Shown: positions 7,125 to 53,103 of the stretch, piece after piece
Layout: each line of letters opens with the position of its first letter
How positions within the stretch are numbered: position 1 is the first letter of the stretch
DNA from: Gibbula magus
Taxonomy: Eukaryota > Mollusca > Gastropoda > Trochida > Trochidae
Assembly: GCA_936450465.1 (NCBI GenBank)
Contig: OW388293.1
Span: 44,102,982 to 44,166,981, forward strand
DNA length: 64,000 bases
Direction: 5' to 3'
Notes under the pieces: model-generated
The model's database searches: none
The model's input: only the letters and a program-made list of their open reading frames with translations
What the model was told of the DNA's origin: nothing
Made by a program: the position numbers and the translations under genes

Positions 7125-7726
7125 TTCCAAATATGGTCAATGCGAATTCATGTAGAGATGTAATTTGAAACATTGCATTCGCAACTATGCAAGTCATGTC
7201 AGTCCCGAAATGCAAAAGTCCTTTTTACAAAGCTGACTTTGCAACTCCTCATTTTCCATTTTTCATTTGTTAAATGTAACTTGTAACATTACAAAATGTG
7301 CATATTATTTAGATTTAATAATTAAAAATGACAAGTTGACTTTTCGACTTCGACGATTTCTAGAATTACATTTCAACTTTGTAAAGTTGAGAATGCGAAG
7401 TTACGATTGACAGAATTAAAATGTTAGTTTTGCAAGATTGGACTTTTCTTTTCGAGACTTGTATGGTTGAGAACGACATGTTACACTTTACAAGTTACAA
7501 GTCAACATGTCTTCATTATTGGCACAAATCCCCTTCCATACATATGTAGGAACAGACTGCATTGATCCCTGAAACTTGATAAAGGTGTCAGTACAAACTA
7601 ACTTTGTACGTCAGCTTGTGTAAACTGTGTAAGTGATTGATCTGCCCACATTGATCTATGCAAAGTTAATAGTAGCTGTACATTGACATTGGCGTTAGCT
7701 GCATTAAGTATATATACCTTGTATGG

Positions 7727-7810
7727 CATCTTCCCACGCAAAGCCTAACAAGCGCCAGTCTCCAACTGGCTAATTTAGGCCTTGCAGTATTTCCCCACTA
7801 AACTTGTGCT
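7727..7810 (+). repeat. Left TIR of transposon A (84 bp)
   Basis: Identical to the left TIR of copy B and the inverse of the right end. It contains a nested palindrome (GCCAGT-loop-ACTGGC within AAGCCTAA...TTAGGCCTT) and an in-frame ATG that reads MQYFPTKL into the element. Confidence 0.95.
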
Positions 7811-7904
7811 GATTGCAGCGCCCTCACTGGCGTTTTTTAGTTACCTCCAGTTACCTCCCCTGCATCAGCCAATCACTGACGCCGATCCAATTGCACAACA
7901 AAAC

Positions 7905-9838: not shown

Positions 9839-11761
9839 AACTGTTAGCGAATCTATTATGTTATCCCAGATGTAGTTTGCAAGTTGTGGATACTTGCATC
9901 TATATATGCCTAACTCATTTTCTTTATGAGTGATTTAGAATAACACTTTGTAGATCAAAAAAGTGAAGATTAGACCACTGAATAAATATAATACAAGAAT
10001 GTGTAACCACACCTTACATAAGAAACTGTGTGAACTGAGGTATTAACTGTTCATAATACCAAAAATGAGTCAAATGTTTGTTCTATAAATTTATTTCTTG
10101 GAATGTTATTTGAAATACATATTATTTCTGACAAATGGTTTTCAAGTCTTATTCATTTTAGTAAAATAGACCCATGAAGCTCATCAGGAAGATTTATAAT
10201 CTAAAATTGAACTTGGGAAGATCTAAAACAACGGCCATTGGTGCATAGTCTTAGGTAGTTTATCATATAAACAAAAGTTAAAATGATTGACCCATATTTT
10301 CAAAGCTCTCTTTAAGATAGTCACAAGTACCATACATTAACACTGACTTGCGACTATCTTAGCATTAAGAGATGTTGGAAGATATGGGCCCTGGATGGCT
10401 CAAAACACAAATACACTATGTGTACATGTTATTAAGATGTTATTTTCAAAATTTTAACTTTCTATATCAAATGGTTTTGGAGAAAAGTTGTCTAAATATT
10501 TTAGAATTTCAGTTTTGAGGGTGCAGCGGTTCTGGTTGGGGGAATTCGGAAAATGTAAAAAGTTTATGACCGACGACCCATAAGCCTATCTTGCCTTTCA
10601 GGCCTGTTGAGCTAAACACTTTTAAAACACAGAGAATAAAAAAAAAAAAATTGGCATATCAGTTTGTTGGCCATATTTTCATTATCAACATTTATAACAC
10701 CTAGAAATTTCCAGATATCTTTAATCCGATTAATGTTAATTTCTCAGTTACAATGTTCTGGAATAAAAACTTTTCAAACACTTACACATGAAAAGTATAA
10801 ATTGCTTCATATGGAATGTAGATCATGAAATATTGTCTGACAAATACTTTAAATTCAGTTCAACAAAGCTTTGCAGTTCTTCAAACTGACACAATGAAAG
10901 TCCCAATTTAATGTATATTAAGGTATAACATATCAGTCCTTGCCTCATCAGGTATTACATTATTTATTATCTCAAAAGTAAATACTAACAAGTAAAAAAA
11001 ATACACTGCACAGTCACCAATTTAAATTCAAATTCAGAAACCACATTGTGTCAATCCAAAAATTAAATAAATACAGACATTTGCAATAAGTTTGAGTTGA
11101 GGTATTTCCTCTATTGACTTGTTTATATTAGAAGTTTGTTAAAGTTCACTCACGCAACCATCATCAAAAGAGCACAGAAAGTCTAAAACATTATTAACAG
11201 CAATTCTAAAAACCAACCTCCCCCAATTAGAGGCAGATTCCCCAATCAAAACTGTATACACAATTGTATACACAGACAATATCAGTAACAAGGTTATACT
11301 GGAAATTACAGCTTGGAATTGTATGTCAATTGGCTTCAGGAAAGAAGTAGTTAAATGTTTAAGGTGAAATGTCTGTCACACTCATAAGGGAGGGGAGGTT
11401 TAATGATCAGATGATCAAATTTCTACCAACAGTTCCGGGTGCAGCAGTACTGGAGAAGTCGAAAATGTGTAAAATTTTACAGACAACGGCCCATGCCATA
11501 GGCTAAAATGAATCACCTTTGGGAAAATAACAAATAATACAATAGTAACAGGAATAGTTGACAACAATATGAAATCTCTGTAATAGAAAATTGAATAGCA
11601 ATTCCTTATCCTTTCAGTGCAGTAAAATGCTGCAGCTGAACTTGATAGTGTGCTGTAATACAAAGAACAGTTAAAGAAGTGGGGCAAGGCTTAAATTAGC
11701 CAGTGATGGAAGTTGGCCCTGTCATGACTGGAAAAAACTCTCTCTCCCTGGATGTAAATAT
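9839..11761. other. Central spacer of transposon A between convergent genes
   Basis: Region between the helicase stop and the transposase stop, holding both 3' ends. An AATAAA polyadenylation signal lies at 9981-9986, downstream of the helicase. An imperfect foldback lies at 10291-10388 (CCCATATTTTC...GAAGATATGGG). Two related degenerate blocks occur at about 10518-10590 and 11435-11510 (GGTGCAGCRGTWCTGG...). A TIR-like core lies at 11684-11704. The 90-residue minus-strand frame at 11415-11687 has no domain and I do not call it. Confidence 0.7.
11684..11704 (+). repeat. Internal TIR-core motif, copy A
   Basis: The 21 bases match the TIR core at 18917-18937 with one mismatch (GCAAGGC[T/C]TAAATTAGC...), in the same orientation as the right TIR. 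Similarity fades on both sides. It sits 58 bp beyond the transposase stop codon. It may be an internal transposase-binding site or a relic of a nested end. Confidence 0.7.
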
Positions 11762-14700
11762 TTAAAGCAGTTCAAATGAAATTCTCTTCTTTTGGTCAGT
11801 AATCCATTTGTACAGAAGGTCATTCTTGACTCTTGAAAAGACGTCTTTGAATTTGTGGAACCCATCAAAGGAACGCCCAGGCACATGATTAAACACATCC
11901 GATCTTTTCAGTTCAGCGATGATTGCCTTCATGTCTTCAGATTTCTGTACTAAAGGCCTTGTTTTTCCAGATTTTTTGGCCTTGACTTCTCTCATGAGAT
12001 TGTCTTTGATCTCTTTTTGAGTGTTCATGCTGAGTGCAGCACTTTGTGCACTACGATAAGTGGCATTTGCTCCTTGCTGATGGATCTTCTTCTTTACTGC
12101 ATGGACGGTCATCTCCACCAGGTTGTCATTAGGAATGTTCTGTCCAACTCCGCCTCCTGTGTTGGATGTGCAGTTCCACATGTATTCCATGGCCTGGCGA
12201 TCTGAAAGAATGGCAGAGACGTAGGCCTGGAATCTGAAGAGCCACAGCTTATACTTGGTGTGATGACCAACATCACATAGGAGCATTTCAAACTTTGCGT
12301 TCCTCGCAATTCGGCTGCCGTCTCCTTGTTTGTAAGCATCATTTGTGTCCCTCAGAAGCAGTGCACATTTCATAAATGAAGATCTCCATGTTGAAATGTG
12401 GTCCTCAGGTCTGATTTGCTGGTTACCTTCACGAGGAACGGTGTGGGCACTTTTCACATGTCTCTCAAAATACCCTTTTGATTTGTAGGATTTGCCACAT
12501 TCACAAATATATCTGCCCTTGTCTGTGTCAAATCTTTCCTCAATAACTTTGTTGGCAGTGTCCAGATTTTCGGTGGCTTCAGTGATGTCTTTCACATCTG
12601 GAATAAAAGTATGCAAGATATAGATGAGATAAGATATAATGTGTATCACTATCGAATCAAAAGTCTGACACAGGATAGCAGAGTGGTTAGCACATTTGGC
12701 TTGGGATTAAGATGTCCCATGTCAAGGTCTGGGCAAATTTGTCTACTTTAGAGAAATGTTCTACAATGAAGCTTGGGTGCTATGTAATAGTGTATTTAAG
12801 CGAAGTGCCACCAAAGGTTTGTCTGTTCCAGCTTTTGATCACAGGTGTTACTGCAATGCATAACCACACTGGTGTTGTGTGCTTTCTCCCTAAACTTAAA
12901 GGAATAATGAAAATGATGATCTGTTTCATTCAGTTCAACTAATTGACACTGTCAGTCACTTCTGCAAGTCGTTCCCTAAAACTTCCAACACCTGGAAGCA
13001 GTTTCAATTACTACTGTAATGAACTATTTTTATAAACTTACCTGACAGTTTCACAAATTTGTTGATAATATCTTGTGCCATATTTTGGAGGAACTTGAGC
13101 TTGAGGTCATCATTCATAAGCATGGAGAGGTCTTGTGTTGGTTCCCCATCCAGCTCATCCAATCCCATCAGCTCCATACATGCTCCAAGTACATAGCCGT
13201 CTAGGCAGTCTTGCAGGAAAGAGTAGTGGGCTCTACAAGAGATGAAATAATGTTATTCTTGGATGAAAAAAAAAGAGTATGTCCCAAGAAAATTTCAGGG
13301 TTACAATGAAGTCAATGTTCTATATGTTTGAAAGTCATTAAATTTTGGAAAACAAATATCAAGCTAAGGTTGACTATCCACTATCACTGCAATTAGAACG
13401 CAACGTCATAGACTGACTGACTGACGTCACAACATCGCTTTGACTCAGTGATATTATGGCCTAATAAGAGTTTGAGATCTGGCTCCTAATGCTCCAGCTA
13501 GGGGCTGAAGGGTAACTATTTTCAGCTTTATAGTCTGTAATTATTCAGATGTAGTCAACTAGTTTTAAGTTTTTAGTTTTAGGTCCAGTCTACAATAATT
13601 TGTAACCCCATTGCCCATGGTACTTATAGACCTCCAGAGCTAGTTCATAAGAAGAAGTTGATAATTAAAAATAAATTTATTAATTGAAGCTTTGCCACTA
13701 TGCCATTCCATAGGCCTTGTAGGCCTGGATAGCTAAATATAAATCAAATCGTCCCTTATACCTGTAGTTTCCGATGACGGCTTTTCCTCCTTGGACGTTT
13801 ACCCGCTTCAAGACATTCCTCAGCTGATACAAAGTTCCTGGATCTCTGCATGAAGATGACTTGTAAAATTGTTGATAGATGAACTGAAACAAAAAATGTT
13901 GCAAATCTTTTTATTAATCCAGTCCACAGTATTTTTTCATTTGTCATCAGAATTTAACTGAAATACTTGAGGTGAGGTGAGTTGGTGTTTAACTGCGCTT
14001 TCAAGAGTATTTCTCTTTTTTCGCAGCTGCTAGTATGGCAGGGAGAAAGCCCGCAACGCCATGTGGCTATGCTTTGCGATGAAACCTGGGAGCATCTACT
14101 TGAACTAGCGAACCATGGGTGGTACTACGCTGAAATTCAGTGTAGCATTGCACCCAATCCTTACTGCTTGAAGAACAGTTCTCTACTGCAGACAAAGTTT
14201 CTGTGCCCCTGGGGGGATTCGAACCTCAGACCTCTTGATCCGAGGCCGAACGCGCTAACCACTGCGCTTGCCGCCTGAAATACTTAAATTGTATTTCCAT
14301 GGTAACCAACTTTGAATTCATTCTCATTATTTTGACAGGATATGTAGATTAAGTATGTACAGTTAAAATTCAATCTACATTTAAGAGCTGCAACACCTTG
14401 TTAGACTAAGTGCACAAATACAAACTAATTCTTTACTCCTGTGAATTCTGAGTCTGGGTGAATAGGCCTGAGTATATTAAATGAGTGATGTTCAAAGGCA
14501 AAACAATCTACTGAAATTCAGGAAATGCATAAAGGGACAAAAGAATGTTCAGATATATTCAATGCTGCGCAATGATAAAAACTCAATTCTATAACATCCA
14601 TAATACCTAACTTATTTTGTCATTATATATTGATAAAATGAGAATGATCAACAACAAAAGGAACTAATAAGTGTCAGTAATGAAATAACTGAAGAAACTG

Positions 14701-17700
14701 TAACATAAAATGTTTAGTAAAATCAACAGGCTAATTCTGATGACATGCATTATCCTTAAAGTTTGTCAATGATTTATTGGGTCAATCAATTTACTCATGC
14801 ATTATCAGTTACTTCAATTCTGGATTCTTAAGTGTATCAGGAACTCAAATCAACAAAAGAAATCAACAGCATTCAAAATTAACAAAACAAATCAACAGAA
14901 ATTTACATTTGGTACATGCAAACTGTTCAATAATGGAAACATTAGTACTACAGAACCAACCATTTGAACAATTACTACTGGCATGCTCAACAGTTGATAC
15001 CAGACAGAGGTTCATCATTCTGTGTAAGCCCTCAGGGCGGTGGATGACTCCCTTCAGCATAGTGTGATCAGTGGGACTATTCAACAGAGCCAACTGAGCT
15101 GAATAAGCCCTCTCATTCGTCAGGCAATCTCCACCAAACACTTTCTTTTGCACAACAGTGGGTGGGTCACCAACGTGAGGAATGTATTTGTCATGAATAT
15201 GTTCCAAAATTGAAATCATGTCGTCTGTTTTGTTCTCACTCTTGTCCAACAAATCTAAAACGGTGTAAACAGATTTTTTACCCGTTTCATTTTCATATGG
15301 ATGTTCAATGTGAGATGGTAGGCATGATTTCATGTTCTGGAGACATTTGATATGGGTCACCATGATATGCATTATGTGATGGACATAATCTTTCTCCAGT
15401 TCATCACAATCAGTCAGATCAGGGACAAAATTTCCATTAGAAATGTCCATGATGTTAGCTCTTGGACCTGCATCTGGAAGATGGGGAAAAAGAACTCTTT
15501 TCTGTACACCCAGCAGCAGAAACCAGTGCCAACTCTTTGTTCGGTGCTCTTTTGTCATTTGTGAAGGTGTCCTAGTGATATCAATATTGTCGCCAATGAT
15601 TTCAACTGAATGTGACATACCTATTTTTGAGTCTTCTGCACTGCTTGCAACACTACAGAACATCTCTTTCACTCCCTTAGCATGTTCATCCTGAAGTTGC
15701 TGCCGTTGACTCGAAACTGTTCTTGCTGCCACCGATAAACCCAACTTGTTCATTGTTGAGATTGCCTATAACATCAAAGTTATGTTTGAGAAAACATGAA
15801 ATAACAGTAATAATATCAAAAGTTAGGATAGTTTTGTAAATATTTTTACAAAGAAGCCTATGTTTACTTGCCTCATCAGTTGCCCCACAGTGATCTAGCA
15901 TCTGCCCTATCCCTTGTTGGAGCAGTGACATCATCTTGTTCCTTGAGAACAGCACCACAGCAGCAGTAACAGTTCTATGAGAAAGGTTACCCATGGTCAA
16001 GCTGGTAAGTGTCTTGTGAAACAACGGTGCGGACGTTTGCAGTTCAAGATCAATGCAGCTCAATTTCATGGCCCTCAAATTGTCAGGACTGACTTTCTGC
16101 AGGAGGAGTGGAACTTTCCGTGAACACAGAGTCTTACAATCACACACTAATTTCTTCAGGAAACAGTCTGTTAAATTCTCCTTTAGATGGGACTTGAAAA
16201 TCTTCTTTGCAATGCAGGGCGCTGAATCACCACGGTAAATGGAGGTAACAATACCCTTCAAGTCTGTATTGTGAATGGTTCTGGTTCTCACAGCACCTCC
16301 TTTCACACGATGTTGAACCTGTTGAAATGTACAAAATAAAAAATAGAGTCAACATTTCTATTTGGAAGTCATCCAGTTTTCTCCCATTCAATAACTTTTC
16401 AGTATTGATTCTCACAATCTCGAGTTTGCCACTAAGCTTTGAAATGTTTAAACCGGTTCAATCAGCAACATTTGTATAGCAAAAATGTTCAAGTCCTTGT
16501 TACTCTTAATTTCTTAATGCGTCTCAACATACTATCATTATCTTTCTCTATAATCAATGAGGTATGCAACCTTTACTTTTATAATATCTATTAGTCCTAG
16601 AGTGCAACTTTAATAGGGAAATGTCCTTTCAGCTCTCCATAATGTGCTTAATTATTTTTTAAATGACAATGTCACTGCTACACAACTGTTCATAATAATT
16701 TGTAAGAAGGATTAAATGTGAAAAGTGTTCCTCCATTAAGTGGTAGTCTTTTTGTTGAATTCTTAATGAATAAAGAATCAATTATATTTGGTCCTTTTGA
16801 TTACGTACTCGCATATGTTCAGGGCTGAATGGTAGTTCATCCTGTTTGGCTGGAGTTTTCTTTGGTAGGAGAGTTCCAAATCTTCCTGTAAAAAAGATTT
16901 TTTTAGAGCAATATAGAACATTAAATCATAATATGTATTACTTAATAATACATTTGCTGATTTCTGTACTAAAATGAAAAAAATATTTGTGAAATATAAG
17001 TATTTTTTTTATTGTAAATAATGAAATTCTAGTTTCTTCCAACTTACCCTTTGTTCCATAGGTATGTTCTGATGGTTGTTTACTTTTGGTTGGAGTTTCA
17101 CTTGAATCTAGAATTGGTCTTGCCAATACCTCCGGAGAATTCTGAAGAAATATATATACATATATATATACATATATTTCCATTTAACATAGAAACAATT
17201 GTCCTGACATCAGTGACACAGATTTTAATATGAACCCAAACTTGAAATTAGGGCATACAGCTATACACAACTGGCTTATTAAATAACACAAAACTTTCAT
17301 CAATTGACTGTGCAGAAATAGTGTTATGATATTTCTAATATGAGCTTTATTAGATGTAGTTTCAATCAATGAAAAGTTATCTGATGGCATTTTATTGCAA
17401 ATGTTTTTTAAACTAGTAGCTTAAGAACTATCTAAATCTTACTATTTCTAACGGTATGGAAGGAAATGCCCCAAAATCAAGCTTTTGTCGCTGCTTCTTA
17501 GGTGTTGACAGCAAAGCCTTCTTAGGTTTTCTTGGTGTTGGGGATCTCGCATAAGTTTTCCTCTTGTCCTGTGTCTTAGTAGGGGTTCTGTCATCTATGC
17601 AATAAAGAAATAAATATATAATAGAGTATTTTCAAACTAAGTCAATAAAATGTACAGGGCTGTAGGGTAAAGCTATACCTAAGCGATAAAGGGCCATTGT

Positions 17701-18809
17701 ATACCAGTATTAAAGGTATTACATATATGTGCAAAACTTATGTCACAAATAAATTTGTATTGATAAAATTAATGCAGAAAAATTCAAGTAGAAATGATTG
17801 TGACAGAGGCTCCAAAAGTTGTAGGATGACTACCCCTTTATTTCCAAAGGTGAGTGTAGGTAAACATATCTATGCAAAAATTTAATGGCCCTATATTCCA
17901 AGTTTTCAGATTTTTATAGAGGACTAGATGATGATTAAAACAATAGTTTGGTTACTACTGGCATTTTGTATGTGAGAAGGCATACTGACAATGTTTTGAT
18001 TCCTAGGAGTTTTATCCTTTTTTTTCATTTTAAAAATGTTTACATTTTACAAACATTGTATTATCAAAATGTCCAAACAAATGTGTGATATCATTTTATT
18101 TCTATTTTATATTTTATAATATATCTATTGCTTATGTTGAATAATCATTGCTTATGTTGAATTATCAGAATTGTGTGTAAGTGCATATATTTATCCGCGT
18201 ATCTTTGGCCTACACAACACAGCAGTTAACAATAATATCTTCGTAATCCAAATCACTAACCTGCATGTTGAGTCGTTGAAGTTTGCGGCTTCTCAAGGTT
18301 GCCAGTCCTCTGGTCGAGCAAGGTAGACCTCAGAGCCTTGATTATTGAAGTTTTTTCCTGAAATAATAACAGTGCAGTGTACAACAGGCAAAACTGAAAA
18401 CGAAAGTCAGAAAGAGCTATACGATGCGAATTCCTTAGTCAATATCAGTTTTTAAGTAACAACTATTCAGCATTTCTGTTTGACGTGTGTTGAATAACTA
18501 CGTATGTATGAAACTATGAAATGACAACAAATTATTTAGGGTGACAGTCAAAATATGTCTCACCTGGCGTAGCGCTTCAAGTCTGTGCTGCAAATCATGA
18601 TCGATCTTCGCGAGTTTGTTCAGTTTGCCGAAGCATTTCAGGCAAACAGTCTTTGACAGGCCGTCGTTTGCTTTGGGATTGTAGCATAATACTTGCGACA
18701 GCTGATTATAAACGTGAAAAGACGCAGAATATATTGATCTTCGCTTTATAGATGGAACTGTCGTTTGACAAATTCTGCATTCGACTGACAGCGACATGGA
18801 GGTCGCCAT
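11762..18809 (-). CDS. DUF6589-type transposase, 10 exons, copy A
   Basis: Exons (minus strand, 5' to 3'): 18809-18564, 18357-18261, 17594-17443, 17141-17048, 16885-16809, 16318-15872, 15765-15001, 13883-13762, 13232-13042, 12597-11762. All junctions keep one frame of 1008 codons plus stop. Eight introns have GT donors; the sixth has a GC donor (GCAAGT). I chose ATG 18809 (MATSMSLS) because its context is good and it precedes the Cys domain; the frame is also open upstream through the TIR from 18920. Domains and residues are described under copy B, whose exons are essentially identical. No stop or frameshift was seen here, so copy A may still supply transposase although its helicase is dead. 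Predicted nuclear. The exon model is inferred from splice consensus and phase, not from RNA. Confidence 0.85.
12665..12860 (+). repeat. Degenerate tRNA-like SINE remnant in last intron, copy A
   Basis: GGATAGCAGAGTGGTTAGCAC resembles a Pol III A box as in the other SINE heads, followed by a weak B box (GTCAAGGTCTGGG). The rest is not recognisable. It lies in intron 9 of the transposase gene and is also present in copy B at about 35457-35652. No duplication could be defined. Confidence 0.4.
13969..14274 (-). mobile_element. SINE inside transposase intron 7, copy A
   Basis: Same SINE family as 4627-4944: tRNA-like head at the right end (GGGGGATTCGAACCTCAGAC...CGCTAACCACTGCGC on the plus strand) and a GTGAGGTGAG far end. 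It is flanked by an 11-bp duplication CTGAAATACTT (13958-13968 and 14275-14285). It lies within intron 7 (13884-15000), on the same strand as the host gene. The same copy with the same duplication is in transposon B, so it inserted before the two transposons separated. Confidence 0.9.
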
Positions 18810-18891
18810 GTTTGTTTTGAGCCCCGGATGTAGTTTTGGAAGGTGGATTCTGATTGGACTATCAAGTTCAGCCGCAGCTAGCGGAGAGCCA

Positions 18892-18975
18892 AGCATAAGT
18901 TTAGTGGGGAAATACTGCAAGGCCTAAATTAGCCAGTTGGAGACTGGCGCTTGTTAGGCTTTGCGTCGGAAGATG
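18892..18975 (-). repeat. Right TIR of transposon A (84 bp)
   Basis: Reverse complement of the left TIR with two substitutions (18896 and 18967). The outer end reads GGCTTTGCGTCGGAAGATG where copy B has GGCTTTGCGTGGGAAGATG. Confidence 0.95.
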
Positions 18976-19065
18976 CTTGTATGGTTGAGAACGACATGTT
19001 ACACTTTACAAGTTACAAGTCAACATGTCTTTATTATTGGCACAAATCCCCTTCCATACATATGT
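18976..19065 (+). repeat. Fragment of the 2352-7723 arm repeat
   Basis: About 90 bp starting CTTGTATGGTTGAGAACGAC nearly duplicates 7459-7548 and, inverted, part of the arm near 2532-2621. It directly abuts transposon A. Similarity ends at ACATATGT. It shows that the pre-insertion site joined the tip of the large inverted repeat to an internal segment of the same repeat. Confidence 0.8.
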
Positions 19066-21136: not shown

Positions 21137-21383
21137 AATTGAAGGGGTTAGAATAACACCGGGGTTAACTGCCATTTTAAAATTTGATAGTAAACAAAGC
21201 TTTTTTTTAAAATTTGAAAATTAATTTTTCTAATTGCATTGCCATAGACAAGGTGTTAATGGCAATCTTTTAAATAACATTGTAATCGAAAGAAAACAAA
21301 ATTGAAATATTTGAATTAAATATAATTTACTACAAAATTTTAAAATGGCAGTTAACCCCGGTGTTATTCTAACCCCTTCAATT
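21137..21383. repeat. ~247-bp MITE with 58-bp terminal inverted repeats
   Basis: The left arm 21137-21194 and right arm 21326-21383 are almost perfect inverses; both carry GGGGTTAGAATAACACCGGG or its complement. The ~130-bp centre is AT-rich and non-coding. The 86-residue open frame starting at 21345 begins inside the right arm and is an artefact. No clear target-site duplication was found. Superfamily unknown. Confidence 0.8.
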
Positions 21384-30501: not shown

Positions 30502-30510
30502 GTAACAACC

Positions 30511-30594
30511 CATCTTCCCACGCAAAGCCTAACAAGCGCCAGTCTCCAACTGGCTAATTTAGGCCTTGCAGTATTTCCCCACTAAACTTGTGCT
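30511..30594 (+). repeat. Left TIR of transposon B (84 bp)
   Basis: Perfect inverse of 41684-41767. Inner palindrome GCCAGT at 30538-30543 and ACTGGC at 30549-30554 with a 5-base loop. The outer stem AAGCCTAA (30525-30532) pairs with TTAGGCCTT (30559-30567) with one bulge. Probably the transposase-binding region and part of the promoter or 5' UTR. Confidence 0.95.
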
Positions 30595-30688
30595 GATTGC
30601 AGCGCCCTCACTGGCGTTTTTTAGTTACCTCCAGTTACCTCCCCTGCATCAGCCAATCACTGACGCCGATCCAATTGCACAACAAAAC

Positions 30689-32630
30689 ATGGCCGCGCCC
30701 ACAGAAAGCGAGTTGTTGGGTCAAATTAAGGATAAGTTTTCCATTACAGACCTTTCAAACACTCAGATTGAGTCAATCAAGGCATTGAGAGACGGAAAGG
30801 ATGTGTTTGTTGGCACAAGGACTGGCAGTGGGAAATCGTTAACATATGAAAGCGCTCCTATCGTATTTAAAGGAAAGAGCGTTCTAGTTATCGCACCACT
30901 CACATCGATCATGATCGAACAATGTGACAAATTAAATGCCCTCGGCTTCAGAGCAACATACATTGGGAAAGATATGGAAGAAAAAAAATTGATAGAGCAG
31001 GGTCAGTTTGATTTTCTATTCTCAAGTCCGGAAAATGTGGTCGGGAACGAAATGTGGAGGGATTCAATCACTTCAAAAGGATTCAAAGATAAACTTGGCC
31101 TCATCACTGTCGATGAAGCCCATACAGTTCTTCAATGGTAAGAAGTTATTAGCACATGAATATCAAAACAAGAATGTTATTAAATTCCAGTTACCTCATG
31201 TGATTGTTTTTTTAAAATAGTGAATTTTTGATTTGTTGAATTCATAATTATTAAATTTACTTATTAACTCATGTAGCAACGTTTCAAAATAAATAAATAA
31301 ATTCCAAGTGAATGCTGTGACTACAGTGTATTTTGTTTAAAAAATCAAACACATTATTAAACAATAAGGATAATTATTATACAGTAAAGTCACTGAAATA
31401 AAGATGCAATGATTTCCTTTACATGTTTCTCATAATGAATTTCTTTTTCTCGACAGGGGAGAAAGCAGAGGCGGTGACCATCCTTTTCGAGAATGGTTCA
31501 GCAAGATCGGTGAACTGAGATGCCTTTTCACAAATACACCAATCCTTGCACTTACTGCAACTGCATCGCCTTTAAGTCGAAGGAGAATCATGAAGGGACT
31601 GTGCTTCAGGGCTGACAAGGAGATCATCATCGATTCATCTGACAGGTCTAACATTAAGATAACATCACAGGCTTCAAGTACATCGAAACCAGTAGAAGAA
31701 ATATTCAGATGGATGATTCAGGACTTAGATGAACAGAAAGAAGATTTTCCTCGTCATCTCGTGTTCTGTTCAAGTATCAGCGACTGTGCTAAGATATACT
31801 TGACTTTTCTTACCCATTTTGGACGTGATCAACCGTATGTTGATATGTACCATAGCAAAACTAATGAAGCCGTTAAACAAAGGATAAGGGATGATATGGG
31901 CATTGACTCTGGCAAAATAAGAATTCTCATTTGTACAAATGCTGCGGGAATGGGTGTTAACTTTAAGAGCGTCAACAACATTGTTCATTTTGGCCTTCCC
32001 AGAGAAATGGATACTTTTGTACAACAAATGGGGAGAGCTGGGAGAGACGGTTCCTTCGCCAATGAACTTATTTTGCTTAAGATGAACAAAAATCACTTAA
32101 AACGATCAGAGCCAGAATTAGTTCGCTTAGCACGAGAGAAAGATACATGTCGACACAAGATTCTTTGTGATGCTTATTTGTGTAAACATGTGACGATTGA
32201 TCCATTTCATAACTGTTGCGATGTGTGCGAGTCAAAATGCAAATGTGGTTGTGATGATTGCCCGAAACCACACAGAGTCAACTTGACAAAGGAAGAGGTA
32301 ATAGAGACGGAGCTATTTCAACGTGAAGTAACACAATCTGACAAGGAGCTGCTACATCAGCAACTCAAAAGCCTACAAAATTCTCTATCCTTTGAATGTA
32401 CAGCAGCTCAATTAATTAATATGCCCAAAACATGTGAACTCTCAGACTCTCTAATTGATGCTGCTGTGGAAAACTGCTCTTTGATTTTCACTCCTGTGGA
32501 TGTGATGTCATATTCAACATGTTGGTCCTACAATATCGCTTCAGAGGTATCATCCACAGTAAATGCAGTGTTTGGTGATACGGACATGTATGATTATGTC
32601 GAGGAAATGTCTGAAGAATCGGACCACTAA
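30689..32630 (+). CDS. RecQ-type DNA helicase, 2 exons, copy B
   Basis: Exon 1 30689-31137, intron 31138-31456 (GTAAG...CAG), exon 2 31457-32630; 540 aa. The split codon gives Trp150 and rejoins the frame exactly. Motifs by residue: Q-like region 17-35; Walker A GTRTGSGKS 42-50; motif Ia 70-75; DEAH 142-145; TAT 183-185; motif IV about 250-260; TNAAGMGVN 310-318; QQMGRAGRDG 339-348; then a cysteine cluster (381-418) like the RecQ zinc-binding domain. The end is acidic. No winged-helix or HRDC domain is recognisable, so it is shorter than most cellular RecQ proteins. Role: presumed ATP-dependent 3'-5' unwinding during transposition or repair (inference). Start: ATG 30689 (ACAAAACATGG context); the frame is open from 30566 in the TIR, a possible longer form. 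AATAAA lies at 32773-32778. Confidence 0.9.
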
Positions 32631-33082
32631 AACTGTTAGCGAATCTATTATGTTATCCCAGATGTAGTTTGCAAGTTGTGGATACTTGCATCTATATATG
32701 CCTAACTCATTTTCTTTATGAGTGATTTAGAATAACACTTTGTAGATCAAAAAAGTGAAGATTAGACCACTGAATAAATATAATACAAGAATGTGTAACC
32801 ACACCTTACATAAGAAACTGTGTGAACTGAGGTATTAACTGTTCATAATACCAAAAATGAGTCAAATGTTTGTTCTATAAATTTATTTCTTGGAATGTTA
32901 TTTGAAATACATATTATTTCTGACAAATGGTTTTCAAGTCTTATTCATTTTAGTAAAATAGACCCATGAAGCTCATCAGGAAGATTTATAATCTAAAATT
33001 GAACTTGGGAAGATCTAAAACAACGGCCATTGGTGCATAGTCTTAGGTAGTTTATCATATAAACAAAAGTTAAAATGATTGA

Positions 33083-33180
33083 CCCATATTTTCAAAGCTC
33101 TCTTTAAGATAGTCACAAGTACCATACATTAACACTGACTTGCGACTATCTTAGCATTAAGAGATTTTGGAAGATATGGG
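33083..33180. repeat. Imperfect ~98-bp foldback in spacer
   Basis: The left side CCCATATTTTCAAAGC...TAAGATAGTC pairs imperfectly with GACTATCTTAGC...GAAGATATGGG. The same structure is at 10291-10388 in copy A. It may be an old MITE captured by the transposon. Confidence 0.6.
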
Positions 33181-34488
33181 CCCTGGATGGCTCAAAACAC
33201 AAATACACTATGTGTACATGTTATTAAGATGTTATTTTCAAAATTTTAACTTTCTATATCAAATGGTTTTGGAGAAAAGTTGTCTAAATATTTTAGAATT
33301 TCAGTTTTGAGGGTGCAGCGGTTCTGGTTGGGGGAATTCGGAAAATGTAAAAAGTTTATGAACGACGACCCATAAGCCTATCTTGCCTTTCAGGCCTGTT
33401 GAGCTAAACACTTTTAAAACACAGAGAATAAAAAAAATAAAAATTGGCATATCAGTTTGTTGGCCATATTTTCATTATCAACATTTATAACACCTAGAAA
33501 TTGGGAAAACCATTTCCAGATATCTTTAATCCGATTAATGTTAATTTCTCAGTTACAATGTTCTGGAATAAAAACTTTTCAAACACTTACACATGAAAAG
33601 TATAAATTGCTTCATATGGAATGTAGATCATTAAATATTGTCTGACAAATACTTTAAATTCAGTTCAACAAAGCTTTGCAGTTCTTCAAACTGACACAAT
33701 GAAAGTCCCAATTTAATGTATATTAAGGTATAACATATCAGTCCTTGCCTCATCAGGTATTACATTATTTATTATCTCAAAAGTAAATACTAACAAGTAA
33801 AAAAAATACACTGCACAGTCACCAATTTAAATTCAAACTCAGAAACCACATTGTGTCAATCCAAAAATTAAATAAATACAGACATTTGCAATAAGTTTGA
33901 GTTGAGGTATTTCCTCTATTGACTTGTTTATATTAGAAGTTTGTTAAAGTTCACTCACGCAACCATCATCAAAAGAGCACAGAAAGTCTAAAACATTATT
34001 AACAGCAATTCTAAAAACCAACCTCCCCCAATTAGAGGCAGATTCCCCAATCAAAACTGTATACACAATTGTATACACAGACAATATCAGTAACAAGGTT
34101 ATACTGGAAATTACAGCTTGGAATTGTATGTCAATTGGCTTCAGGAAAGAAGTAGTTAAATGTTTAAGGTGAAATGTCTGTCACACTCATAAGGGAGGGG
34201 AGGTTTAATGATCAGATGATCAAATTTCTACCAACAGTTCCGGGTGCAGCAGTACTGGAGAAGTCGAAAATGTGTAAAATTTTACAGACAACGGCCCATG
34301 CCATAGGCTAAAATGAATCACCTTTGGGAAAATAACAAATAATACAATAGTAACAGGAATAGTTGACAACAATATGAAATCTCTGTAATAGAAAATTGAA
34401 TAGCAATTCCTTATCCTTTCAGTGCAGTAAAATGCTGCAGCTGAACTTGATAGTGTGCTGTAATACAAAGAACAGTTAAAGAAGTGGG

Positions 34489-34509
34489 GCAAGGCTTAAA
34501 TTAGCCAGT
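34489..34509 (+). repeat. Internal TIR-core motif, copy B
   Basis: Same one-mismatch copy of the TIR core as 11684-11704, placed 57 bp beyond the transposase stop codon and oriented like the right TIR. Confidence 0.7.
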
Positions 34510-34566
34510 GATGGAAGTTGGCCCTGTCATGACTGGAAAAAACTCTCTCTCCCTGGATGTAAATAT

Positions 34567-37500
34567 TTAAAGCAGTTCAAATGAAATTCTCTTCTTTTGG
34601 TCAGTAATCCATTTGTACAGAAGGTCATTCTTGACTCTTGAAAAGACGTCTTTGAATTTGTGGAACCCATCAAAGGAACGCCCAGGCACATGATTAAACA
34701 CATCTGATCTTTTCAGTTCAGCGATGATTGCCTTCATGTCTTCAGATTTCTGTACTAAAGGCCTTGTTTTTCCAGATTTTTTGGCCTTGACTTCTCTCAT
34801 GAGATTGTCTTTGATCTCTTTTTGAGTGTTCATGCTGAGTGCAGCACTTTGTGCACTACGATAAGTGGCATTTGCTCCTTGCTGATGGATCTTCTTCTTT
34901 ACTGCATGGACGGTCATCTCCACCAGGTTGTCATTAGGAATGTTCTGTCCAACTCCGCCTCCTGTGTTGGATGTGCAGTTCCACATGTATTCCATGGCCT
35001 GGCGATCTGAAAGAATGGCAGAGACGTAGGCCTGGAATCTGAAGAGCCACAGCTTATACTTGGTGTGATGACCAACATCACATAGGAGCATTTCAAACTT
35101 TGCGTTCCTCGCAATTCGGCTGCCGTCTCCTTGTTTGTAAGCATCATTTGTGTCCCTCAGAAGCAGTGCACATTTCATAAATGAAGATCTCCATGTTGAA
35201 ATGTGGTCCTCAGGTCTGATTTGCTGGTTACCTTCACGAGGAACGGTGTGGGCACTTTTCACATGTCTCTCAAAATACCCTTTTGATTTGTAGGATTTGC
35301 CACATTCACAAATATATCTGCCCTTGTCTGTGTCAAATCTTTCCTCAATAACTTTGTTGGCAGTGTCCAGATTTTCGGTGGCTTCAGTGATGTCTTTCAC
35401 ATCTGGAATAAAAGTATGCAAGATATAGTCATGTGTATCACTATCGAATCAAAAGTCTGACACAGGATAGCAGAGTGGTTAGCACATTTGGCTTGGGATT
35501 AAGATGTCCCATGTCAAGGTCTGGGCAAATTTGTCTACTTTAGAGAAATGTTCTACAATGAAGTTTGGGTGCTATGTAATAGTGTATTTAAGCGAAGTGC
35601 CACCAAAGGTTTGTCTGTTCCAGCTTTTGATCACAGGTGTTACTGCAATGCATAACCACACTGGTGTTGTGTGCTTTCTCCCTAAACTTAAAGGAATAAT
35701 GAAAATGATGATCTGTTTCATTCAGTTCAACTAATTGACACTGTCAGTCACTTCTGCAAGTCGTTCCCTAAAACTTCCAACACCTGGAAGCAGTTTCAAT
35801 TACTACTGTAATGAACTATTTTTATAAACTTACCTGACAGTTTCACAAATTTGTTGATAATATCTTGTGCCATATTTTGGAGGAACTTGAGCTTGAGGTC
35901 ATCATTCATAAGCATGGAGAGGTCTTGTGTTGGTTCCCCATCCAGCTCATCCAATCCCATCAGCTCCATACATGCTCCAAGTACATAGCCGTCTAGGCAG
36001 TCTTGCAGGAAAGAGTAGTGGGCTCTACAAGAGATGAAATAATGTTATTCTTGGATGAAAAAAAAAGAGTATGTCCCAAGAAAATTTCAGGGTTACAATG
36101 AAGTCAATGTTCTATATGTTTGAAAGTCATTAAATTTTGGAAAACAAATATCAAGCTAAGGTTGACTATCCACTATCACTGCAATTAGAACGCAACGTCA
36201 TAGACTGACTGACTGACGTCACAACATCGCTTTGACTCAGTGATATTATGGCCTAATAAGAGTTTGAGATCTGGCTCCTAATGCTCCAGCTAGGGGCTGA
36301 AGGGTAACTATTTTCAGCTTTATAGTCTGTAATTATTCAGATGTAGTCAACTAGTTTTAAGTTTTTAGTTTTAGGTCCAGTCTACAATAATTTGTAACCC
36401 CATTGCCCATGGTACTTATAGACCTCCAGAGCTAGTTCATAAGAAGAAGTTGATAATTAAAAATAAATTTATTAATTGAAGCTTTGCCACTATGCCATTC
36501 CATAGGCCTTGTAGGCCTGGATAGCTAAATATAAATCAAATCGTCCCTTATACCTGTAGTTTCCGATGACGGCTTTTCCTCCTTGGACGTTTACCCGCTT
36601 CAAGACATTCCTCAGCTGATACAAAGTTCCTGGATCTCTGCATGAAGATGACTTGTAAAATTGTTGATAGATGAACTGAAACAAAAAATGTTGCAAATCT
36701 TTTTATTAATCCAGTCCACAGTATTTTTTCATTTGTCATCAGAATTTAACTGAAATACTTGAGGTGAGGTGAGTTGGTGTTTAACTGCGCTTTCAAGAGT
36801 ATTTCTCTTTTTTCGCAGCTGCTAGTATGGCAGGGAGAAAGCCCGCAACGCCATGTGGCTATGCTTTGCGATGAAACCTGGGAGCATCTACTTGAACTAG
36901 CGAACCATGGGTGGTACTACGCTGAAATTCAGTGTAGCATTGCACCCAATCCTTACTGCTTGAAGAACAGTTCTCTACTGCAGACAAAGTTTCTGTGCCC
37001 CTGGGGGGATTCGAACCTCAGACCTCTTGATCCGAGGCCGAACGCGCTAACCACTGCGCTTGCCGCCTGAAATACTTAAATTGTATTTCCATGGTAACCA
37101 ACTTTGAATTCATTCTCATTATTTTGACAGGATATGTAGATTAAGTATGTACAGTTAAAATTCAATCTACATTTAAGAGCTGCAACACCTTGTTAGACTA
37201 AGTGCACAAATACAAACTAATTCTTTACTCCTGTGAATTCTGAGTCTGGGTGAATAGGCCTGAGTATATTAAATCAGTGATGTTCAAAGGCAAAACAATC
37301 TACTGAAATTCAGGAAATGCATAAAGGGACAAAAGAATGTTCAGATATATTCAATGCTGCGCAATGATAAAAACTCAATTCTATAACATCCATAATACCT
37401 AACTTATTTTGTCATTATATATTGATAAAATGAGAATGATCAACAACAAAAGGAACTAATAAGTGTCAGTAATGAAATAACTGAAGAAACTGTAACATAA

Positions 37501-40500
37501 AATGTTTAGTAAAATCAACAGGCTAATTCTGATGACATGCATTATCCTTAAAGTTTGTCAATGATTTATTGGGTCAATCAATTTACTCATGCATTATCAG
37601 TTACTTCAATTCTGGATTCTTAAGTGTATCAGGAACTCAAATCAACAAAAGAAATCAACAGCATTCAAAATTAACAAAACAAATCAACAGAAATTTACAT
37701 TTGGTACATGCAAACTGTTCAATAATGGAAACATTAGTACTACAGAACCAACCATTTGAACAATTACTACTGGCATGCTCAACAGTTGATACCAGACAGA
37801 GGTTCATCATTCTGTGTAAGCCCTCAGGGCGGTGGATGACTCCCTTCAGCATAGTGTGATCAGTGGGACTATTCAACAGAGCCAACTGAGCTGAATAAGC
37901 CCTCTCATTCGTCAGGCAATCTCCACCAAACACTTTCTTTTGCACAACAGTGGGTGGGTCACCAACGTGAGGAATGTATTTGTCATGAATATGTTCCAAA
38001 ATTGAAATCATGTCGTCTGTTTTGTTCTCACTCTTGTCCAACAAATCTAAAACGGTGTAAACAGATTTTTTACCCGTTTCATTTTCATATGGATGTTCAA
38101 TGTGAGATGGTAGGCATGATTTCATGTTCTGGAGACATTTGATATGGGTCACCATGATATGCATTATGTGATGGACATAATCTTTCTCCAGTTCATCACA
38201 ATCAGTCAGATCAGGGACAAAATTTCCATTAGAAATGTCCATGATGTTAGCTCTTGGACCTGCATCTGGAAGATGGGGAAAAAGAACTCTTTTCTGTACA
38301 CCCAGCAGCAGAAACCAGTGCCAACTCTTTGTTCGGTGCTCTTTTGTCATTTGTGAAGGTGTCCTAGTGATATCAATATTGTCGCCAATGATTTCAACTG
38401 AATGTGACATACCTATTTTTGAGTCTTCTGCACTGCTTGCAACACTACAGAACATCTCTTTCACTCCCTTAGCATGTTCATCCTGAAGTTGCTGCCGTTG
38501 ACTCGAAACTGTTCTTGCTGCCACCGATAAACCCAACTTGTTCATTGTTGAGATTGCCTATAACATCAAAGTTATGTTTGAGAAAACATGAAATAACAGT
38601 AATAATATCAAAAGTTAGGATAGTTTTGTAAATATTTTTACAAAGAAGCCTATGTTTACTTGCCTCATCAGTTGCCCCACAGTGATCTAGCATCTGCCCT
38701 ATCCCTTGTTGGAGCAGTGACATCATCTTGTTCCTTGAGAACAGCACCACAGCAGCAGTAACAGTTCTATGAGAAAGGTTACCCATGGTCAAGCTGGTAA
38801 GTGTCTTGTGAAACAACGGTGCGGACGTTTGCAGTTCAAGATCAATGCAGCTCAATTTCATGGCCCTCAAATTGTCAGGACTGACTTTCTGCAGGAGGAG
38901 TGGAACTTTCCGTGAACACAGAGTCTTACAATCACACACTAATTTCTTCAGGAAACAGTCTGTTAAATTCTCCTTTAGATGGGACTTGAAAATCTTCTTT
39001 GCAATGCAGGGCGCTGAATCACCACGGTAAATGGAGGTAACAATACCCTTCAAGTCTGTATTGTGAATGGTTCTGGTTCTCACAGCACCTCCTTTCACAC
39101 GATGTTGAACCTGTTGAAATGTACAAAATAAAAAATAGAGTCAACATTTCTATTTGGAAGTCATCCAGTTTTCTCCCATTCAATAACTTTTCAGTATTGA
39201 TTCTCACAATCTCGAGTTTGCCACTAAGCTTTGAAATGTTTAAACCGGTTCAATCAGCAACATTTGTATAGCAAAAATGTTCAAGTCCTTGTTACTCTTA
39301 ATTTCTTAATGCGTCTCAACATACTATCATTATCTTTCTCTATAATCAATGAGGTATGCAACCTTTACTTTTATAATATCTATTAGTCCTAGAGTGCAAC
39401 TTTAATAGGGAAATGTCCTTTCAGCTCTCCATAATGTGCTTAATTATTTTTTAAATGACAATGTCACTGCTACACAACTGTTCATAATAATTTGTAAGAA
39501 GGATTAAATGTGAAAAGTGTTCCTCCATTAAGTGGTAGTCTTTTTGTTGAATTCTTAATGAATAAAGAATCAATTATATTTGGTCCTTTTGATTACGTAC
39601 TCGCATATGTTCAGGGCTGAATGGTAGTTCATCCTGTTTGGCTGGAGTTTTCTTTGGTAGGAGAGTTCCAAATCTTCCTGTAAAAAAGATTTTTTTAGAG
39701 CAATATAGAACATTAAATCATAATATGTATTACTTAATAATACATTTGCTGATTTCTGTACTAAAATGAAAAAAATATTTGTGAAATATAAGTATTTTTT
39801 TTATTGTAAATAATGAAATTCTAGTTTCTTCCAACTTACCCTTTGTTCCATAGGTATGTTCTGATGGTTGTTTACTTTTGGTTGGAGTTTCACTTGAATC
39901 TAGAATTGGTCTTGCCAATACCTCCGGAGAATTCTGAAGAAATATATATACATATATATATACATATATTTCCATTTAACATAGAAACAATTGTCCTGAC
40001 ATCAGTGACACAGATTTTAATATGAACCCAAACTTGAAATTAGGGCATACAGCTATACACAACTGGCTTATTAAATAACACAAAACTTTCATCAATTGAC
40101 TGTGCAGAAATAGTGTTATGATATTTCTAATATGATCTTTATTAGATGTAGTTTCAATCAATGAAAAGTTATCTGATGGCATTTTATTGCAAATGTTTTT
40201 TAAACTAGTAGCTTAAGAACTATCTAAATCTTACTATTTCTAACGGTATGGAAGGAAATGCCCCAAAATCAAGCTTTTGTCGCTGCTTCTTAGGTGTTGA
40301 CAGCAAAGCCTTCTTAGGCTTTCTTGGTGTTGGGGATCTCGCATAAGTTTTCCTCTTGTCCTGTGTCTTAGTAGGGGTTCTGTCATCTATGCAATAAAGA
40401 AATAAATATATAATAGAGTATTTTCAAACTAAGTCAATAAAATGTACAGGGCTGTAGGGTAAAGCTATACCTAAGCGATAAAGGGCCATTGTATACCAGT

Positions 40501-41601
40501 ATTAAAGGTATTACATATATGTGCAAAACTTATGTCACAAATAAATTTGTATTGATAAAATTAATGCAGAAAAATTCAAGTAGAAATGATTGTGACAGAG
40601 GCTCCAAAAGTTGTAGGATGACTACCCCTTTATTTCCAAAGGTGAGTGTAGGTAAACATATCTATGCAAAAATTTAATGGCCCTATATTCCAAGTTTTCA
40701 GATTTTTATAGAGGACTAGATGATGATTAAAACAATAGTTTGGTTACTACTGGCATTTTGTATGTGAGAAGGCATACTGACAATGTTTTGATTCCTAGGA
40801 GTTTTATCCTTTTTTTTCATTTTAAAAATGTTTACATTTTACAAACATTGTATTATCAAAATGTCCAAACAAATGTGTGATATCATTTTATTTCTATTTT
40901 ATATTTTATAATATATCTATTGCTTATGTTGAATAATCATTGCTTATGTTGAATAATCAGAATTGTGTGTAAGTGCATATATTTATCCGCGTATCTTTGG
41001 CCTACACAACACAGCAGTTAACAATAATATCTTCGTAATCCAAATCACTAACCTGCATGTTGAGTCGTTGAAGTTTGCGGCTTCTCAAGGTTGCCAGTCC
41101 TCTGGTCGAGCAAGGTAGACCTCAGAGCCTTGATTATTGAAGTTTTTTCCTGAAATAATAACAGTGCAGTGTACAACAGGCAAAACTGAAAACGAAAGTC
41201 AGAAAGAGCTATACGATGCGAATTCCTTAGTCAATATCAGTTTTTAAGTAACAACTATTCAGCATTTCTGTTTGACGTGTGTTGAATAACTACGTATGTA
41301 TGAAACTATGAAATGACAACAAATTATTTAGGGTGACAGTCAAAATATGTCTCACCTGGCGTAGCGCTTCAAGTCTGTGCTGCAAATCATGATCGATCTT
41401 CGCGAGTTTGTTCAGTTTGCCGAAGCATTTCAGGCAAACAGTCTTTGACAGGCCGTCGTTTGCTTTGGGATTGTAGCATAATACTTGCGACAGCTGATTA
41501 TAAACGTGAAAAGACGCAGAATATATTGATCTTCGCTTTATAGATGGAACTGTCGTTTGACAAATTCTGCATTCGACTGACAGCGACATGGAGGTCGCCA
41601 T
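34567..41601 (-). CDS. DUF6589-type transposase with ZAD-like N-terminus, 10 exons, copy B
   Basis: Exons (minus): 41601-41356, 41149-41053, 40386-40235, 39933-39840, 39677-39601, 39110-38664, 38557-37793, 36675-36554, 36024-35834, 35402-34567; 3027 nt, 1008 aa, all phases consistent. Residues 11-59: C11-x2-C14 and C56-x2-C59, a treble-clef/ZAD-like zinc domain. Residues about 105-220: basic, proline-rich linker. Residues about 370 to the end: DUF6589-type region with IGDNIDI (D430, D433), VFGGDCLT (D584), GTLYQLRNVLKR (in exon 8) and MWNCTSNTGGGVGQNIP followed by E892. I propose D430, D584 and E892 as the RNase H-fold catalytic acids (inference). An insertion at 762-782 holds a zinc finger, C-x1-C-x12-H-x4-H. 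Expected nuclear, binding the TIRs and catalysing strand transfer. The exon 6 donor is GC. The frame is also open from 41712 inside the TIR. Confidence 0.88.
35457..35652 (+). repeat. Degenerate tRNA-like SINE remnant in last intron, copy B
   Basis: Counterpart of 12665-12860: GGATAGCAGAGTGGTTAGCAC, then a weak B-box-like sequence. Copy A has 13 extra bases just on the exon side of this element. Confidence 0.4.
36761..37066 (-). mobile_element. SINE inside transposase intron 7, copy B
   Basis: Same insertion as in copy A, with the same 11-bp duplication CTGAAATACTT at 36750-36760 and 37067-37077. It lies in intron 7 (36676-37792). Shared inheritance shows the SINE rides with the transposon. 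Confidence 0.9.
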
Positions 41602-41683
41602 GTTTGTTTTGAGCCCCGGATGTAGTTTTGGAAGGTGGATTCTGATTGGACTATCAAGTTCAGCCGCAGCTAGCGGAGAGCCA

Positions 41684-41767
41684 AGCACAAGTTTAGTGGG
41701 GAAATACTGCAAGGCCTAAATTAGCCAGTTGGAGACTGGCGCTTGTTAGGCTTTGCGTGGGAAGATG
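41684..41767 (-). repeat. Right TIR of transposon B (84 bp)
   Basis: Perfect inverse of the left TIR. Read inward on the minus strand it contains the ATG at 41712 that opens the MQYFPTKL frame ahead of the transposase. Confidence 0.95.
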
Positions 41768-41776
41768 GTAACAACC

Positions 41777-44410: not shown

Positions 44411-44884
44411 TATTTTACCATGGTGTAGACCGACATATTGGATTACACTAGCCTTCTTATGCTGACTTCCTCGGATGAACCAGTAACACCTTACCTTTTG
44501 AGTTGATCAGTGTCACGTCAAGAAGTGATTCTGGTCTGGAGTGTGACAAGTGCTCTGTAAATATGAGATCAAGCAACTTGTAGACCATCATGTTTAATTA
44601 CACTCTCTTCAACAGCATGGTCACTATCATACAATTATAGGCTGGTGATGATGTCAATACCTGGACCCGAGAAAACAATATTGGCCAAGAACGAAGTCCG
44701 CGGTTCACCGAATTCAACAGACCATAATTGTTTTATTATGTATTTAATACAGAAAAGAAAGGAAAACTATGATATATTGTCAAACATGTACTTTGGTTTG
44801 AACAGTTAAGGATAACGATAACGATTAACGATATCATGACGTTATGCATTAATCGTTTGAAGGCATGCAGCAATCACTTGACGT
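44411..44884. other. Intergenic, no gene seen
   Basis: AT-rich. It continues the P-type similarity weakly at first, then shows nothing recognisable. Confidence 0.45.
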
Positions 44885-45065
44885 CACTCAAGTCAATACG
44901 GCTTTTGGTCGGCCTCGGGCTAAAGTCAATATGCTTTTCTGTCGACGGTCACGTGATCGCCATCCGACCAATCAGATCGCTGGAAAACATATTTACTCCA
45001 AAAAACATAATAAAGAAAAGACTCAAGCCCGAGTATGACCAAAAGCCGTATCGACTTGAGTTACG
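44885..45065. repeat. ~181-bp hairpin repeat (MITE-like)
   Basis: ACTCAAGTCAATACGGCTTT near 44888 is matched in inverse by AAAAGCCGTATCGACTTGAG near 45042, giving arms of about 36 bp with a few mismatches (GGTCGGCCTCGGGCT against AGCCCGAGTATGACC). GC content is above the flanks. The 82-residue frame at 44836-45084 runs straight through both arms and is an artefact. Confidence 0.7.
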
Positions 45066-45367
45066 CCAACCGATTGTTGCATGACGTCCCCGCTGAAAAG
45101 ATATACTGACATAATAATAACAATTACCTCGTGATACGTAGACAACGATGGACAGATGTGATTGACGTCCACCTGTTCAGTGTTGCTATAATTGTCAATG
45201 TGATATAAAACAAACAGTAGATAAGAAGAACAATAAGTAGATTAAAACAACTAAATACATTTCCAAAATTCCGAAAACCGCAAAGGAGGAAGTTGATCAA
45301 TATGAAATTGCTGTTTTCATGGGTATATCACGCATGCCATGGTGGCTATTTAACAAACATGAAATTA

Positions 45368-52940: not shown

Positions 52941-53103
52941 AGGAATTTTCAGGGTAGGCGATTAATCAAGGCAGGTAAATATTCAAGGCAGGCGATTTTT
53001 CAAGGCAGGCGAATATTCAAAGCATGCGAATATTCAAGGCAGACGAATATTCAAGGCAGGCGATTAAAGAATGCGAATATTCAAGGCAGGCGAATATTTA
53101 AGG
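52941..53103 (+). repeat. 17-bp minisatellite, ~10 units
   Basis: Consensus unit GCGAATATTCAAGGCAG, with variants (GCGATTTTTCAAGGCAG, ACGAATATTCAAGGCAG) and one shortened 13-bp unit. The 60-residue frame at 52929-53111 is simply this repeat read in one frame and shows a repetitive peptide; I do not regard it as a gene. Confidence 0.9.

Follow-up and report, generated by a model that had tools for sequence, protein, structure and literature searches.

Why should a cut-and-paste transposon carry a RecQ helicase of its own? The question is raised by a locus in the gastropod Gibbula magus, where we analysed a 64-kb stretch of contig OW388293.1 (hereafter the window) and where an 11,257-bp DNA transposon, copy W1, spans positions 30511-41767, or 30502-41776 with its flanking duplications. 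The two genes of this element converge: a RecQ-like helicase runs from the left end (plus strand, two exons) and a 1008-residue protein of the Pfam family DUF6589 from the right end (minus strand, ten exons), and for both proteins the named relatives that match best come from molluscs. We read W1 as an autonomous AcademH-type transposon, with a DUF6589 transposase of the DDE/D kind and RNase H fold, and a RecQ helicase acting in donor-gap repair; to this reading we attach a probability of roughly 0.83.

Ends and recent copies of the element

The 84-bp terminal inverted repeats (TIRs) of W1, at 30511-30594 (plus) and 41684-41767 (minus), are 100% complementary over all 84 positions, and the same 9-bp target-site duplication (TSD), GTAACAACC, lies outside them at 30502-30510 and 41768-41776; on both points the initial annotation of this DNA was correct. 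It had also proposed counting genomic copies with the same TIRs, and a search of the genome (1.47 Gb, 140 contigs) with the left 699 bp gave at least 56 matches (40 of 563 candidates scored), copy counts thus being lower bounds. At least six further long copies were found, one of them inside the window, together with short TIR derivatives of 88-106 bp. From the matches, 17 insertions were chosen for a check of their duplications, seven long and ten short (88-290 bp). The duplication is exact in the long copies W1, W2, C15, C3, C2 and C9, with two mismatches in nine for C8; among the short insertions it is exact in eight (88-106 bp), has one mismatch in another (156 bp) and is missing from the last (290 bp). 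Because 14 of the 17 share the same ends with exact 9-bp duplications that differ in sequence from one to the next, the ends and duplication of W1 are not a product of chance. Immediately 3' of the transposase gene (34434-34510), two stretches of 21 bp resemble the right end of the element at 95% each, 34434-34454 being inverted to 41650-41670 and 34489-34509 direct to 41709-41729.

The initial annotation named one copy only, and the window contains a second, full-length one: W2, at 7727-18975 on the plus strand, with its own duplication, CTTGTATGG, at 7718-7726 and 18976-18984. Between W1 and W2, 16 of the 11,236 bases compared are different, and the two have 10 minority states in common among the six full-size copies; W1 differs from C15 at 31 of 11,234 bases, and from C3, C2, C8 and C9 by 0.89-0.99%. 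The two copies in the window share one orientation, are separated by 22.8 kb and have different duplications, which suggests that a local hop relates them; the probability of a pair as close as this among six copies in 1.47 Gb is about 5e-4, a post hoc figure based on a lower-bound copy number. Of the six full-size copies, W1 alone keeps both frames open, the other five having been read over aligned exons. In W2 the helicase frame is broken and the transposase frame open over the aligned exons, as is the transposase frame of C8, and the helicase is without stops in C15, C3 and C2. W1 is a recently active and apparently intact animal transposon with both its genes.

Other loci preserve shorter forms. 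C9 (L017-L018), at 3838 bp, is a chimera: a 95-bp palindrome formed from TIR ends of the element caps its left 3.7 kb, and one exact 9-bp duplication bounds the whole. Among six further loci that matched at 80-86% and were read, L029, L030, L031 and L033 are related, internally deleted elements, which retain near diverged ends what is left of the initial coding stretches of one gene or both. No TSD of at least 7 bp was found within 12 bases of the repeat ends of the distant C17 element, and when the 300-bp flanks of W1 or W2 were joined and compared with the window, no clean empty site paralogous to either came up; the right flank of W2 has a 90-bp block in common with 7458-7547 (and, inverted, with 2528-2617), where the left flank is not continued.

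The DUF6589 protein

Spliced, the ten predicted minus-strand exons yield exactly 1008 residues in phase, and the lengths, coordinates and closing phases of the initial gene model could all be reproduced. From the start of the gene, exon 1 (41356-41601) would encode a ZAD-like domain with four cysteines (C11, C14, C56, C59) and is followed by exon 2 (41053-41149), the linker exons 3 (40235-40386) and 4 (39840-39933), exon 5 (39601-39677) and exon 6 (38664-39110), after which the intron has a GC donor instead of GT. Exon 7 (37793-38557) carries D430 (38383-38381), D584 (37921-37919) and the E616xxH619 motif; exons 8 (36554-36675) and 9 (35834-36024) lead to exon 10 (34567-35402), which holds a C2H2-like finger (residues 762-782, 35310-35248), E892 (34920-34918) and the stop codon. 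All were placed by splicing, to which alignment adds for exons 3, 4, 6, 8 and 9, and conservation for exons 7 and 10. Six of the nine junctions (residues 82, 222, 371, 626, 667 and 731) fall in sequence that can be aligned with the Pinctada relative P0001, with a one-residue gap in that alignment at 731; the other three (115, 165 and 197), which include the junctions of exon 3, sit in a divergent linker beyond the reach of homology. A repeat resembling a short interspersed nuclear element, and tRNA-like in look to our eyes, occurs in an intron of both W1 (36769-37060) and W2 (13977-14268) and once outside them (4639-4933), the copies being about 88-90% alike.

That this protein belongs to DUF6589 (PF20231), as initially recognised, is confirmed by a Pfam match at E 1.9e-31 (109.6 bits, cut-off 27); Pfam lists the function of the family as unknown. 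What might it do? A relative of 45% identity yields a confident structure model, the best alignments of which are to the P-element, Hermes and RAG1 transposases, all of RNase H fold, with moderate scores, and the acidic residues that such a core would need are conserved in the alignment: D430 in 24 of 24 rows with a residue there, D584 in 29 of 29 and E892 in 28 of 29. The RNase H-type core of the initial annotation is supported by this model, with moderate alignment scores, and by the conserved residues, and D430, D584 and E892 are probably the catalytic DDE residues. E616 of the ExxH motif is as well conserved as these three. Four motifs, GDN, GDxLT, ExxH and PxDxxxE, come back in nine DUF6589 reading frames of this genome, in each case as far as the frame covers them. 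Foldseek alone gave no match below E 0.001, and a DUF6589 profile built from 35 relatives found no solved transposase among the best 60 of 170 PDB rows, all of which fell within positions 459-544, the zinc-finger part.

The internal C2H2-like finger has a first cysteine pair of the form C-x-C and scores 14.2 bits against a Pfam cut-off of 25.2, and it stays under the cut-off in all ten relatives scanned (best 22.1 bits), but the family profile picks up solved structures of C2H2 fingers (best E 3.2e-08), and the alignment shows the C/C/H/H pattern. As the finger is missing from L039, L041 and L042 among the nine same-genome frames, it would seem to be an optional part of the insertion. The ZAD-like domain has four cysteines, and at 19.5 bits the zf-AD profile (PF07776) falls short of its cut-off of 28. 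Among ten relatives P0013 reaches that cut-off (28.1), P0001 (25.9), P0009 (21.3) and P0149 (18.0) do not, and the remaining six are unmatched at E 0.1; the structure model of P0001 (1065 residues) is poor (predicted local distance difference test score, pLDDT, 57.8) and does not confirm a ZAD fold. In a further predicted Pinctada protein, P0183, a DUF6589 piece is joined to a Harbinger-type DDE_Tnp_4, either as a gene-model artefact or as a real fusion.

The RecQ-like helicase and its pairing with DUF6589

Splicing of the predicted exons 30689-31137 and 31457-32630 (plus strand, stop codon TAA included) gives a helicase of 540 residues, the junction of which falls in sequence alignable with the Pecten relative P0023. 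Exon 1 matches Pfam DEAD (1.6e-17) and exon 2 Helicase_C (2.4e-18), and along them lie the stretches which we take to be motifs 0, I, Ia, Ib and II (DEAH), then III, IV, V and VI, of superfamily II (SF2), with a Cys-rich region towards the C-terminus. Among solved structures (PDB) the closest are RecQ, BLM and WRN, RecQ itself at 1.4e-37, and the alignments with RecQ5 and with one RecQ from bacteria extend to residue 426-430. Both the SF2 motifs and the RecQ family, as initially proposed, are upheld. RecQ-like helicases work 3'-5' by family. The Pfam profiles RecQ_Zn_bind, RQC and HRDC gave no match at E 1 in the 540 residues; in relatives, RecQ_Zn_bind is under its cut-off in three of six and unmatched in the other three. 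A tree of 39 rows (the window protein and 38 of 120 listed relatives, midpoint-rooted, with host animal BLM, WRN and RecQ1/4/5 not knowingly included) separates the 31 most window-like rows, on a branch of 100/100, from eight RecQ rows of bacterial, fungal, plant or unnamed origin. Within the 31, the window helicase pairs with a Patella protein (80/72) inside a molluscan clade of 14 rows (97/95). The gene may still have been captured from an animal RecQ.

Is the pairing peculiar to this element? A search of the genome with PF20231 gave 96 matches, against no signal in any of 14 control genomes, and the best 12 were taken as loci L035-L046, all of them distinct from copies of the window element. 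Seven of the 12 (L035, L036, L037, L039, L040, L041 and L043; extra flanks were taken for L035, L036, L040 and L041) have, 3' of the DUF6589 frame, a stretch of RecQ-like helicase coded by the other strand, that of L039 being of 76 residues only (E about 1e-5); within flanks of about 1.5 kb, no helicase was seen in L038, L042, L044, L045 or L046. The transposases of the seven paired loci are only about 22-28% identical to the window protein, and D430, D584, E892 and the ExxH motif are kept at this distance. Both genes are also listed on contigs of equal size in Saccostrea cucullata (LOC134260556/LOC134260557; 102807) and Mizuhopecten (LOC110463036/LOC110463019; 925227). DUF6589 transposase and RecQ helicase are thus a unit that is kept together. 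Relatives occur in molluscs, hemichordates and amphioxus, with the pairing seen only in molluscs and this genome. A viral or prokaryotic origin was considered and rejected: 16 viral and 26 prokaryotic contig stretches matched the alignment patterns (two short ones per scan), and by tblastn none encoded a relative.

Other features of the window

A pair of inverted arms of 552 bp (2341-2892 and 7183-7734), 97% complementary and 4.3 kb apart, is probably another long-TIR element; its right arm enters the target duplication of W2. Diverged blocks, 70-89% alike, recur at 27.7-29.5 and 55.0-56.6 kb and at 42.3-50.5 and 57.4-63.8 kb, with spacings of about 13-15 and 27 kb that suggest an old large duplication. 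Positions 654-815, 21137-21383, 44859-45088 and 52943-53103 hold short hairpins formed by inverted repeats, with arms of 65-91 bp, and a tandem array of 9.7 copies of a 17-bp unit, GAATATTCAAGGCAGGC. No RNA family of Rfam reached its gathering score in the window.

Discussion

To which class does such an element belong? AcademH, the lineage of Academ encoding a helicase (Kojima 2020), is described in PMC10045372 and PMC10799480; AcademH duplications are given as 9 or 10 bp and those of AcademX as 3 or 4 bp, related to helicase and nuclease (PMC10045372), and the AcademH paper's title, as cited there, places the lineage in animals and fungi. A RecQ helicase in Academ goes back to Kapitonov et al. 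(cited in PMC3627910), and a bivalve-specific amplification of Academ is on record (PMC10294476). The RecQ helicase of Academ and the 9- or 10-bp duplications of AcademH are already in print. We hold that W1 works like AcademH and very probably belongs to it: both are TIR transposons of animals, with a transposase, a superfamily II helicase of RecQ type and 9-bp duplications, AcademH and the RecQ-bearing Academ being compared here by description and not by sequence. The initial label of an under-described system has to be softened, since the pairing, though of a little-studied kind, already has a name. Against those descriptions, the ZAD-like N-terminus, the C2H2-like finger in the insertion and the DUF6589 identity are features of W1. 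In the open PMC papers searched, none of which mentions DUF6589, we did not find this assignment, the probable DDE residues or the architecture of ZAD-like domain and zinc finger. The nuclease of AcademX is of XPG type, and a Pfam scan of both W1 proteins brought no nuclease family over its cut-off; AcademX would share a superfamily with W1 if the Academ assignment is right, and differs from it in nuclease and in duplication length.

The best-aligned folds invite comparison with other superfamilies. In P element, hAT (Hermes) and RAG1/Transib a large helical insertion precedes the last acidic residue of the RNase H core, an arrangement that W1 may well have in common with them; their duplications are of 8 bp (P, hAT) and 5 bp (Transib), they have no helicase of their own, and they lack sequence similarity to the DUF6589 profile among the best 60 of 170 PDB rows. 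That W1 is a Kolobok lineage which gained RecQ independently is very unlikely, as Kolobok targets and duplicates TTAA and W1 makes 9-bp duplications. KolobokH does combine a DDE transposase with a downstream RecQ helicase, and one rhodophyte Kolobok has RecQ on the complementary strand, as in W1; however, the same source confines KolobokH to fungi and gives it a C/DxxH signature (PMC9587614), of which, on our reading of the alignment, the ExxH of W1 may be the positional match. An un-named superfamily with RecQ, related to hAT, P and Transib and distinct from Academ, would suit both the profile search, which matched through its zinc-finger part alone, and the absence of DUF6589 from the papers searched, but we judge it improbable considering that RecQ gene, 9-bp TSD and animal occurrence fit AcademH as far as it is described (PMC10045372, PMC3627910).

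How, then, would an AcademH-type W1 move? We posit that the DUF6589 protein is a DDE/D transposase in which D430 and D584 lie in the first half of the RNase H core, followed by a large helical insertion bearing the C2H2-like finger and then by E892, and that the ZAD-like domain ahead of the core might serve dimerisation or binding. This transposase would recognise the 84-bp ends, cut the element out and join it with a 9-bp stagger, as the 9-bp duplications indicate; cut-and-paste itself we infer from the class of the fold. The helicase would most likely act after cleavage, unwinding or guiding strand synthesis as the donor gap is repaired from the sister copy, just as host BLM acts in P-element gap repair. 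Coupled to repair in this manner, it would contribute to restoring the donor copy, and synthesis that stopped early would yield internally deleted derivatives. Indeed, the C9 chimera and the palindromic TIR-only copies may be products of the kind expected from interrupted or template-switched gap repair. They imply that TIR sequence alone suffices for mobility with enzymes supplied in trans, and they leave the role of the helicase unproven.

Could the helicase instead serve mainly in target capture, or in setting a stagger that gives duplications of 9 rather than 3-4 bp? We think this unlikely, as it is normally the transposase that determines how long the duplication is; helicase-less derivatives still have 9 bp, which does not discriminate, considering that they possibly moved in trans. 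Or is the helicase a captured host gene with no role in movement at all? RecQ genes are common in hosts, C8 has lost its helicase and is nevertheless bounded by a near-duplication, and the tree does not knowingly place the RecQ genes of host animals. On the other hand, that same tree (midpoint-rooted, with 38 of 120 relatives) sets the window-like helicases apart from the eight other RecQ rows, and both the pairing and its convergent layout persist beside highly diverged transposases, so that mere capture seems hardly credible to us, and a helicase acting in donor-gap repair remains our preferred reading.

Taken together, these points allow a wider picture that we offer as a tentative speculation. 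Perhaps all DUF6589 proteins represent an un-annotated class of RNase H-fold transposases, which has ExxH instead of the C/DxxH of hAT, P, MuDR and Kolobok and has been locked to a convergent RecQ gene since before molluscs, hemichordates and amphioxus split. The helicase would then rebuild the donor copy, so that an element moving by cut-and-paste would still multiply, and in the ZAD-like domain we would have a version, carried by a transposon outside insects, of the domain found in insect zinc-finger proteins.

To conclude, our results assign a likely function to DUF6589, for which Pfam lists none, with its probable catalytic residues named, and provide a young, apparently intact two-gene element along with natural derivatives that lack the helicase or consist of TIRs only. 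With these, what a cut-and-paste transposon gains from bringing along a RecQ helicase becomes a question that can be tested in cells.

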